From Methanobrevibacter sp. (lineage in GTDB: Archaea > Methanobacteriota > Methanobacteria > Methanobacteriales > Methanobacteriaceae): a stretch of 49,070 nucleotides of DNA. This document shows positions 40,434-44,190 of the stretch, in pieces. Both the position numbers and the translations under genes were made by a program. The notes below the pieces were generated by a model. That model made no database searches. It had not been told where the DNA came from and worked only from the letters and a program-made list of their open reading frames with translations. Location: positions 1-49,070 of the forward strand of contig JAFZMD010000041.1 in the NCBI GenBank assembly GCA_017553445.1, in the 5' to 3' direction. The stretch's first letter is position 1, and each line of letters starts with the position of its first letter.

Positions 40434-40619
40434 ATGCCTGTAATAACAATTGCCGGAAACGATGGAATTAGTGTTGAGAAAAAAAGAGAAATGGTTAAAA
40501 AGGTATCTGAAGTTGTAGCTGAAGCATACGACTTGCCTGTTGATGCCATAACCGTTTTGGTACAAGCCTACCCTAAAGAAAGCATTGGTGTGGCTGGTGA
40601 ACTGTTAAGTGATCGCTAA
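40434..40619 (+). CDS. 4-oxalocrotonate tautomerase family protein
   Basis: 61 residues starting Met-Pro (MPVITIAG), so Pro1 of the mature protein is the catalytic base. The strand-helix-strand build with KREMVKKVSEVVAEAY is typical. The in-frame ATG-less extension to 40419 is excluded because GGAGAGTGA sits just before 40434. Hexameric isomerase family; physiological substrate unknown. Its 3' half and terminator have been copied three times downstream (41194, 42411, 43294). Confidence 0.85.
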   Translation: MPVITIAGNDGISVEKKREMVKKVSEVVAEAYDLPVDAITVLVQAYPKESIGVAGELLSDR

Positions 40620-40628
40620 TCACTTAAC
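40604..40628 (+). terminator. Palindromic terminator containing the tautomerase stop
   Basis: GTTAAGTGAT and ATCACTTAAC pair perfectly over 10 bp; the TAA (40617-40619) lies at loop and 3' arm. TTCTTATTCTTATTTT follows. Copies at 41230-41254 (one mismatch), 42447-42471 and 43422-43446 also face the ends of minus-strand genes. Confidence 0.75.
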
Positions 40629-40655: not shown

Positions 40656-40982
40656 TCAGTTTTTAAAAGATTCGATTTCAGAAATTGACAAGCCAGTAAT
40701 CTCGGAAATTTCTTCCAATTTACAGTCAAGACCCAACAGCTTAGTAACCGCACATTCAACAGTGATTACGCCATCATCCACCAAATTTTTAATCATCAAA
40801 ACCTGACCTTGCTCACGTCCTCGCTCAATACTTTCTTCAATACCCTGTTCAATACCTTGCTCACGTCCTCGCTCAAAACCTTCTTCAATAGCTTCGCCAA
40901 TAGCTTCTTGAACACAATCAAGTTTCATTATAAAACATTCATCCCTTTTCTCTCTCACAGAATTATATTTTTCTTGTCCCAT
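40656..40982 (-). pseudogene. Rpn-type protein lacking its nuclease domain (deletion copy)
   Basis: 108 residues: MGQEK, then 13 residues, then the C-terminal coiled/helix region MKLDCVQEAIGEAIEEGFERG through LSISEIESFKN. Compared with the intact copy at 41282-42199, a 627-bp in-frame segment with the PD-(D/E)XK domain is missing, while the EQG/ERG repeat region is 12 residues longer. The frame is open and keeps its TATA box and ribosome site (GGTGGT), so it may still be made as a regulatory or dimerising fragment. Called a pseudogene because the catalytic part is lost. Confidence 0.75.
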
Positions 40983-41014
40983 CTGACCACCAATTACTTT
41001 ATATTGGTTTTAAA

Positions 41015-41023
41015 GTATATAAA
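41015..41023 (-). promoter_or_regulatory. TATA box of the Rpn deletion copy
   Basis: On the minus strand TTTATATAC, about 35 bp before the ATG at 40982. An identical box at 42232-42240 serves the intact copy. In both, the first 19-bp repeat starts 20 bp upstream of the box. Confidence 0.6.
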
Positions 41024-41042
41024 TTAGTCAGTTTCAAGATAT

Positions 41043-41156
41043 AACAATTTTTATCGCTCAAAACAATATTTAAGGGTCAGAACAATATTTATCAGTGGGG
41101 ACAATTTTTATCACTTAAAACAATATTTAAGTCTCAGAGCAATTTTTCATAATGTG
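41043..41156. repeat. Six 19-bp direct repeats upstream of an Rpn promoter
   Basis: Units start at 41043, 41062, 41081, 41100, 41119 and 41138, each exactly 19 bp, with core AACAATATTTA or AACAATTTTTA followed by a variable 8 bp. On the gene strand the core reads TAAATATTGTT. The array lies directly upstream of the TATA box and resembles iterons or a multi-site operator. Confidence 0.8.
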
Positions 41157-41193
41157 CAAAAATATCAGAATCCCCATAAGTCATGAATACATT

Positions 41194-41254
41194 GAAAAAA
41201 AAGTTAAAAGCATTGGTGTGGCTGGAAGTGTTAAGTAATCGCTAATCACTTAAC
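41194..41254 (+). pseudogene. Relic of the tautomerase 3' end, copy B
   Basis: GAAAAAAAAGTTAAAA, then GCATTGGTGTGGCTGG, then the terminator palindrome match the gene at 40434 with its middle deleted. No usable frame. Marks the left edge of the second duplication unit. Confidence 0.7.
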
Positions 41255-41281
41255 TTCTTATTCTTATTTTAAGATAATATT

Positions 41282-42199
41282 TCAGTTTTTAAAAGATTCG
41301 ATTTCAGAAATTGACAATCCAGTAATCTCGGAAATTTCTTCCAATTTACAGTCAAGACCCAACAGCTTAGTAACCGCACATTCAACAGTGATTACGCCAT
41401 CATCCACCAAATTTTTAATCATCAAAACCTGGCCTTGCCCAATACCTTGCTCACGTCCTCGCTCAATACTTTCTTCAATAGCTTCGTCAATAGCTTCTTG
41501 AACACAATCAAGTTTCATCATAAAACCACCTTCTATTTTCTTTCTCATAGGATCATCTTTTTCAAAGTACATATTTGCAAGCATCAACGCTATTCCATAG
41601 ACAGATTCTTTAATCTCATCATTAGGAAAAGTCAAAAGATTCATCAAATCTGAAGTTTCCTTAAATTGGCAAATAATATTTTCTCTACCATTAACCATGA
41701 TGGGAGTTAATGCCAATTCAACCAATTCCTTATTGCTGAAGTCTTCGCGTTTATTAATTTTTTCTTTAATATTACTTATAATTTCTCTTTCATTAATATT
41801 TAGTAATGAAATTAAAGGAAAATTAAAACAATTCCACTCATTAATACAATACTCAGCTATTTTAGAGTTTTGTGCTGTTGAAATTACTGCAAATATGATG
41901 TTTAAGTTATTGACATTTACTTTTAAATCGAAATTTGAAATATATACCTTGAACCTTTTTATATCCATTATTCCAATATATGTACTTTGAAATTCCAACA
42001 TCAATATAAAATCTCCAATCCTTACAATGAAATCCGGGCGATATAATGACGGTTCGATAGAAATCTGTTCACCTGTCAAAACTTCAATTTCGGAATCGTC
42101 AAAAACATCAAATTCAATGCCTATTTCTAGCATATTTAGAAATTCTAACAAGTATTCATTAGATATTAATTTAAATGTTTTATCTTTTTCTTGTCCCAT
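41282..42199 (-). CDS. Rpn-family PD-(D/E)XK nuclease / transposase-like protein
   Basis: 305 residues, a full-length member. The N-terminal half contains RPDFIVRIGDFILMLEFQS, with Asp56 and Glu69-Phe-Gln71 as the PD-(D/E)XK-type metal site; the EXQ variant is usual in Rpn/YhgA-like proteins. The C-terminus has charged repeats (ERGREQGIGQGQ) and a helix-turn-helix-like end (LEEISEITGLSISEIESF). Bacterial Rpn proteins promote RecA-independent recombination. Ribosome site GGTGGT and TATA box (42232-42240) are present, with a six-unit 19-bp array upstream. Confidence 0.82.
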   Translation of the reverse strand: MGQEKDKTFKLISNEYLLEFLNMLEIGIEFDVFDDSEIEVLTGEQISIEPSLYRPDFIVRIGDFILMLEFQSTYIGIMDIKRFKVYISNFDLKVNVNNLNIIFAVISTAQNSKIAEYCINEWNCFNFPLISLLNINEREIISNIKEKINKREDFSNKELVELALTPIMVNGRENIICQFKETSDLMNLLTFPNDEIKESVYGIALMLANMYFEKDDPMRKKIEGGFMMKLDCVQEAIDEAIEESIERGREQGIGQGQVLMIKNLVDDGVITVECAVTKLLGLDCKLEEISEITGLSISEIESFKN

Positions 42200-42259
42200 C
42201 TGACCACCAATTACTTTATATTGGTTTTAAAGTATATAAATTAGTCAGTTTCAATATAT

Positions 42260-42373
42260 AACAATTTTTATCGCTTAAAACAATATTTAAGAGTCAGAAC
42301 AATATTTATCAGTGGGGACAATTTTTATCACTTAAAACAATATTTAAGTCTAAGAGCAATTTTTCATAATGTG
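42260..42373. repeat. Six 19-bp direct repeats, second array
   Basis: Copy of the array at 41043 with the same six units and period and only a few base changes. It begins 20 bp upstream of the TATA box of the intact Rpn gene. Confidence 0.8.
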
Positions 42374-42410
42374 CAAAAATATCAGAATCCCCATAAGTCA
42401 TGAATACCTT

Positions 42411-42471
42411 GAAAAAAAAGTTAAAAGAATTGGTGTGGCTGGAAGTGTTAAGTGATCGCTAATCACTTAAC
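42411..42471 (+). pseudogene. Relic of the tautomerase 3' end, copy C
   Basis: Same structure as at 41194 (GAAAAAAAAGTTAAAA then AATTGGTGTGGCTGG) with a perfect terminator palindrome at 42447-42471. It faces the end of a CPBP gene. Confidence 0.7.
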
Positions 42472-43293: not shown

Positions 43294-43446
43294 TTGAGAA
43301 AAAAAGAGAAATGGTTAAAAAAGTATCTGAAGTTGTAACTGATTATATGACTTGCCTGTTGATACCCCAACCGTTTTAGTACAATGCCCCCTAAAAAAAG
43401 CATTGGTGTGGGTGGTGAAATGTTAAGTGATTGTTAATCACTTAAC
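43294..43446 (+). pseudogene. Frameshifted tautomerase pseudogene, copy D
   Basis: Aligns from TTGAGAAAAAAAGAG through to the terminator palindrome with 40474-40628. It lacks the start and catalytic Pro region and has two 1-bp deletions (near ACTGATTATATG and TACAATGCCCCC) that break the frame. This is the longest of the three relics. Confidence 0.85.
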
Positions 43447-44190
43447 TTAACCCATAGCATAGTGGTAGTGCTGTGCAAAAGCCATAAATGAAAAAAATGT
43501 CAATTCAATTATTACATGCAGAATATATGTATTGACAACATTTTTTGTTTTGAGATACGGATATAAATGGAAAAAACTTCCAAATCCGATTAAGAAAAGA
43601 CATTGGAAAAGATTATTATTGTATGCATGCAAATGCATCAGACCAAATATTATCATGGATGCAAAAATTCCAAAAACAAGAGCATTTTTCCTGTTTTTTG
43701 TAAAATAATAGATTAGACCCATCCCAATTAAGAAAACAGATACCTTGAATAACTCCTCACCCACCAATTGAATGAGTGCGAATATCGTACTCCAAATTGT
43801 AACTGTGGTTTGCATCACCGCATTTGCGTCTGCTTGGAATCCTAAAGAAGCACCTATGACCTTTACCACATACCCAAATACCAAATACAGAATAAAACAA
43901 ATAATAATGACCTTGAAATCCTTAAGTCTAGGCTTTTTAAAAATCAGACCCAGCTTCCCACGACAGACATAAGCAAATGGAATGATTGTTACCAAGAAAT
44001 AAGTGACCTGCATAACACCGTCAGGAAGCACACTATAATATGGAATGACTTTGCCACTAGTTATAGTAACCAATCCCACCAAAAACGGCGCCAATGCCAA
44101 AACTACCCAATCCACCATTGACAATTTAGGAATCCCATTGTAAAATGGAAAATCTATACCCTCATCTTCAAATTTAAAAAAATCACTCAT
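43447..44190 (-). CDS. CPBP-family intramembrane protease homologue, tandem copy 2
   Basis: 247 residues, closely similar to the gene at 42489 over its full length, including VGEELFKVSVFL, FGLMHL and LHVIIEL. It differs most in the second and third helices (VTITSGKVIPYYSVLPDG) and at the C-terminus. The upstream 45 bp are also shared, so promoter and gene were duplicated together. The stop abuts the last base of the tautomerase-type palindrome, which probably ends this transcript. Confidence 0.75.
   Translation of the reverse strand: MSDFFKFEDEGIDFPFYNGIPKLSMVDWVVLALAPFLVGLVTITSGKVIPYYSVLPDGVMQVTYFLVTIIPFAYVCRGKLGLIFKKPRLKDFKVIIICFILYLVFGYVVKVIGASLGFQADANAVMQTTVTIWSTIFALIQLVGEELFKVSVFLIGMGLIYYFTKNRKNALVFGIFASMIIFGLMHLHAYNNNLFQCLFLIGFGSFFHLYPYLKTKNVVNTYILHVIIELTFFSFMAFAQHYHYAMG

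Follow-up and report, generated by a model that had tools for sequence, protein, structure and literature searches.

Tandem 19-bp repeat arrays upstream of TATA boxes as probable operators of a genome-wide Methanobrevibacter regulon rich in defence-like genes

The ribbon-helix-helix regulators MetJ, omega, and ParR bind cooperatively to operator arrays in bacteria. Similar to these, the element described here consists of tandem short direct repeats near a promoter, for which we propose cooperative binding, but its unit measures 19 bp and comprises two sub-elements, and no regulator of this kind was found in the analysis. In archaea, recruiting activators with upstream sites are known from TFB-RF1 of Pyrococcus furiosus (PMC5937170) and Tar/TK0271 of Thermococcus kodakarensis (PMC6737238). 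As in the case of these activators, the array is situated just upstream of the BRE/TATA region and would act on TBP/TFB recruitment; it differs by the sequence of its unit and by a large, lineage-restricted regulon. To our knowledge, direct repeats in arrays of up to seven are not a feature of the TFB-RF1 and Tar/TK0271 sites. The SOS (LexA) regulon resembles the one proposed here in that members of a similar type (DinD-like Bro-N, polymerase, nucleases) share one kind of operator, whereas the operator itself, its occurrence in tandem arrays, and the archaeal promoter are different. As far as we know, no SOS-like regulon is established in archaea, and little is known about the control of archaeal defence genes.

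In the window, i.e., the whole stretch of 49,070 nt that was analysed, two plus-strand arrays of six 19-bp units each are located at 41043..41156 (array 1) and 42260..42373 (array 2, a duplicate of array 1). Tandem Repeats Finder reported a period of 19 at both arrays (scores 77 and 83). The consensus of array 1 is RRCAATWTTTATSASTSAR; read gene-ward on the minus strand, the unit is YTSASTSATAAAWATTGYY. A two-unit search pattern (RRCAATWTTTA-N8-RRCAATWTTTA, at most two mismatches) matched ten times in the window, exclusively within the two arrays, compared to an expectation of 0.03 from dinucleotide shuffles, and at least ten matches were reached in none of 100 such shuffles. This confirms the six 19-bp direct repeats that a first-pass annotation had proposed for both sites. 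On the minus strand, a TATA box TTTATATA is found at 41016..41023 for a short Rpn-like gene and at 42233..42240 for a full-length Rpn gene. The annotation was right in placing a TATA box next to each array, but the gap is 19 bp and not 20 bp as had been stated. Likewise, the array is indeed present at both sites, but since both copies are situated inside one duplicated block of 292 bp (40963..41254 and 42180..42471, 97% identical), which comprises the promoter, the array, and a fragment of a tautomerase 3' end, they represent a single, non-independent observation. Fragments of the tautomerase 3' end recur along the region (40579-40628, 41213-41254, 42430-42471, and 43396-43454), as if units of Rpn and CAAX-protease genes were added stepwise through tandem duplication. 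Rfam gave no match within the window at the gathering score.

The two arrays precede a full-length Rpn-family gene of 305 aa (41282..42199, minus strand) and a short ORF of 108 aa (40656..40982, minus strand), which consists of the Rpn start and the C-terminal region only and resembles RpnS. Residues of the PD-(D/E)XK catalytic type are present in the 305-aa protein, with D56, E69, and Q71 (D...ExQ signature, E69-x-Q71) being invariant in the alignment of its 25-member family of relatives. TIGR01784 matches 12 of these 25 relatives at E<=1e-3, and the 305-aa protein itself with 23.0 bits in the C-terminal part only, below the curated cut-off of 52.1. The predicted structure has a pLDDT of 78, and its best PDB matches, which include the nucleases McrC, Hjc, and NucS, are weak (none at E<=1e-3). 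Similar to the Rpn toxin-antitoxin/anti-phage systems (PMC10327210), the protein of the Rpn-like gene has a C-terminal region of four-residue repeats, and this C-terminal part also occurs as a short version. The DNA contains a 12-bp repeat region; the repeats vary in number, and the short copy has 12 more residues of them than its full-length neighbour. Unlike in those systems, the short version does not arise from an internal translation start but has a gene, a promoter, and an array to itself; no 19-bp array appears in the passages of PMC10327210 considered. By comparison with the same systems, the 108-aa gene may encode a stand-alone antitoxin that does not match its neighbour in repeat number.

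Beyond the window, the host genome (1.96 Mb) contains approximately 13 array loci, nearly all intergenic and mostly just upstream of a TATA box, compared to 0-2 matches of a reversed control pattern. They include three Rpn loci, aroA, a RhuM gene, the gene of the PolB C-terminal subunit, an adhesin gene, and a DUF2264/ADP-ribosyltransferase-like pair, the ADP-ribosyltransferase-like member of which scores below the Pfam cut-off. With the sequence-only model R1 (57 positions) and a second model, R2, derived from the alternative motif type described below, arrays were detected in almost every one of the 67 genomes that represent the genus (g1), with a maximum of 39 per genome at E<=0.001. A second genus (g9) carries arrays too, with weaker matches overall (42 in its genome G085), and for the other genera of the family few or zero matches were obtained. 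Viral contigs contained an exact match to neither motif type.

Enrichment before particular gene families was assessed with a matrix whose training set excluded Rpn and RhuM. Upstream regions of Rpn genes were positive in 15 out of 28 cases (Fisher p=4e-9) and those of RhuM clade A in 15 out of 21 (p=2e-11), all 30 in canonical orientation, compared to 3 out of 93 control genes; none of eight members of RhuM clade B is preceded by an array. An earlier count of 18 out of 29 Rpn regions above the threshold and 27 out of 29 in canonical orientation, obtained with a matrix for which Rpn loci had formed part of the training set, is superseded by the held-out result. In approximately half of the Rpn genes the arrays are degenerate or undetected. 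For RhuM clade A, the distances between array and start codon mostly proceed in steps of 19 (85, 104, 123, and 161). Bro-N genes, which were outside the training set because the matrix predates the retrieval of their loci, gave 12 positives out of 23 (11 canonical; p=1e-8), concentrated in one DinD-like clade; like RhuM, this family was selected for testing after members had been seen beside arrays. RhuM corresponds to the PADLOC candidate defence family PDC-S05. Further array neighbours are Cas4-like proteins, an AAA_15 ATPase, an ADP-ribosylglycohydrolase, HerA, and a protein that looks RNA-ligase-like on visual inspection but has no Pfam match. As a class, cas1 operons are not enriched (2 out of 28 with an array, p=0.23). 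A few cas2-cas1 operons (L068, L303, and L305) have an array just upstream. Due to the housekeeping genes among the targets, i.e., aroA, the PolB subunit gene, and neighbours of valS, the label of a defence regulon is incomplete.

Viewed from the promoter, the order is (YTSASTSATAAAWATTGYY)n, a partial unit, and the TATA box. Within each unit, the highly conserved element AACAATWTTTA is joined to TSASTSA, a degenerate palindrome. In 14 out of 60 non-redundant flanks, 18-19 bp separate the array edge from the start of the TATA box, compared to a maximum of 7 under the null model (0 out of 500 randomisations). On the opposite side of the arrays a weaker TATA peak occurs at 9-10 bp (7 out of 60 flanks; 3 out of 500 randomisations), and hence two divergent promoters may share a single array in some cases. 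Two unit types are distinguished by ATS or CRA at positions 11-13. Although the typing is partly biased by locus discovery, for which a type-biased model had been used in some cases, the genome explains 77% of the variance in motif type (R2 0.77; permuted mean 0.25; 0 out of 2000 permutations) and the gene family 6% (R2 0.06). Rpn and RhuM loci, found without a type-biased model, show the same trend. The two species-bound motif types, tracking the genome and not the gene family, point to a single genome-wide trans-acting factor of diverging specificity rather than to a gene-specific autoregulator. Exceptions to this trend are compatible with gene transfer in the recent past. In the type-1 genome G004, for instance, a RhuM array (C1:606061-606114; L254, L314) is of the foreign motif type, which suggests a recent horizontal gain along with its promoter.

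The location of many arrays of gut methanogens just upstream of gene start signals, above all those of genes resembling antiviral defence genes, makes them most likely docking sites of a regulator and not a signal for replication or transposition. We therefore consider it very probable that the array is a multi-copy operator or upstream activating sequence (UAS) of one cooperative trans-acting regulator, which in Methanobrevibacter would act genome-wide on a regulon rich in defence-like genes. The distance to the TATA box is fixed, the tested Rpn and RhuM promoters share one orientation, and the same motif recurs at several promoters per genome and co-varies between species. Cooperative regulation from a site that lies upstream of the TATA box had also been considered in the first-pass annotation, a proposal in agreement with the fixed position and orientation at many promoters. 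Judged from sequence, the element appears to work like a UAS or operator array; no earlier description was found in the literature searched, most subscription journals lying outside that search. We infer binding by a protein, its cooperativity, and the sign of control from this arrangement. Several protomers of the regulator would bind successive 19-bp units cooperatively, and with the array edge one unit (19 bp) away from the BRE/TATA region the bound complex would control TBP/TFB recruitment. The putative targets are enriched in defence-like genes, namely Rpn and Cas4-like genes and one clade each of RhuM and of Bro-N/DinD-like genes, and include some repair and housekeeping genes. Since the array is situated wholly upstream of the BRE/TATA region without overlapping it, activation is slightly favoured over repression.

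A self-recognising Rpn unit, as envisaged in the first-pass annotation, would imply autoregulation, with the C-terminal (RpnS-like) domain binding the array as an antitoxin-type repressor. It draws on the arrays at many Rpn loci in a single orientation, on the separate short Rpn in the window, and on RpnS, a three-helix dimer with predicted similarity to helix-turn-helix (HTH) proteins (PMC10327210), HTH motifs being present in many antitoxins. The annotation had further asked for arrays beside other Rpn genes, and they were found there in fixed orientation and position (the 15 out of 28 held-out regions). Yet the same arrays precede many unrelated genes, among them RhuM, Bro-N, Cas4-like, PolB, and aroA, and the motif type follows the genome rather than the family. 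Furthermore, the array-rich genome G018 has 25 R1 and 29 R2 matches, yet zero matches to the Rpn of the window. Arrays are confined neither to Rpn loci nor to genomes with a detected relative of this Rpn, and as self-binding of Rpn cannot explain those at other promoters and in genomes where such a relative was not detected, autoregulation is unlikely.

The genome-wide distribution also speaks against the other two roles suggested in that annotation. An iteron, i.e., an array for the control of replication or plasmid copy number, would fit the tandem repeats and their length, but at least ten dispersed chromosomal loci per genome are tied to TATA boxes. No replication gene is prominent in, or was noted beside, the inspected flanks, and the arrays do not mark an origin next to a replication initiator gene but occupy dispersed chromosomal promoters, so that we assign hardly any probability to this function. 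For a transposase-like unit, or generally a recombination site bound by a transposase or integrase, one may refer to near-identical arrays that in many species follow a gene for a tyrosine recombinase (L059, L069, L072, L132, L135, and L137) and to the former label of Rpn as a putative transposase. However, a recombinase is absent near most arrays, and arrays keep to orthologous promoters at a fixed distance to the TATA box despite diverged units, which makes a mobile element a very unlikely explanation. Neutral tandem duplication of AT-rich spacer could be invoked for the window, where the two copies trace back to one duplication. Recurrence, fixed spacing and orientation, and a 19-bp register across species with diverged flanks are in conflict with it and reduce its probability to practically nil.

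A more specific version of the preferred operator/UAS reading is possible but tentative, namely a DNA-damage- or infection-inducible archaeal regulon with an SOS-like or immune-like stress regulator as the factor. Rpn, RhuM, Bro-N proteins resembling DinD, Cas4-like nucleases, the AAA_15 ATPase, the C-terminal subunit of DNA polymerase B, and the HerA neighbour are in agreement with it, but several targets have no role in repair or defence and cas1 shows no enrichment. One could thus be dealing with an undescribed, lineage-specific stress or immune regulon of Methanobrevibacter, an assumption that we hold with some reserve, in which a single cooperative regulator would use the tandem 19-bp arrays to co-control Rpn, RhuM, Bro-N/DinD-like, Cas4-like, and repair genes together with a small RNA. 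If true, such a regulon would be what SOS or infection-response control is in other organisms. The arrays provide a precisely defined cis-element, the genes it is likely to target, and a bait sequence for fishing out the regulator, and would place families whose role in these archaea is unproven (RhuM, Bro-N, and SseB-like and HATPase neighbours) in a shared regulatory context.

As candidates for the factor, three proteins were rejected. For Rpn no relative was found in the array-bearing G018 and RhuM was not found in the array-bearing G005, so that neither qualifies as the universal factor, and a multi-HTH repeat protein encoded next to one array is absent from the host genome G000. The latter protein (L198/L231, G003:C4:115455-117371) comprises approximately 1000 aa (open frame of 1027 aa) with apparent tandem HTH-like repeats and occurs in 29 out of 67 genomes of the genus and in one other genus.

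At L059, L069, L072, L132, L135, L137, and L356, a short array with near-identical flanks is located between a tyrosine-recombinase gene and a gene for a small conserved protein, and this arrangement may represent a mobile or invertible unit.

Between array and valS, non-coding DNA is conserved over a stretch that has a separate TATA box and several helices (L041:1495-1754, L070:1234-1493, L075:1539-1798, L086:1539-1798, L089:2003-2262, L091:2090-2349, and L196:1747-2006). An Rfam search of this stretch gave no match. The helices are formed by GACATC/GATGTC, CTAATG/CATTAG, and AGGGTGAGAT/ATCTCACCCT with modest covariation, and the stretch is a candidate for a small RNA controlled by the array.
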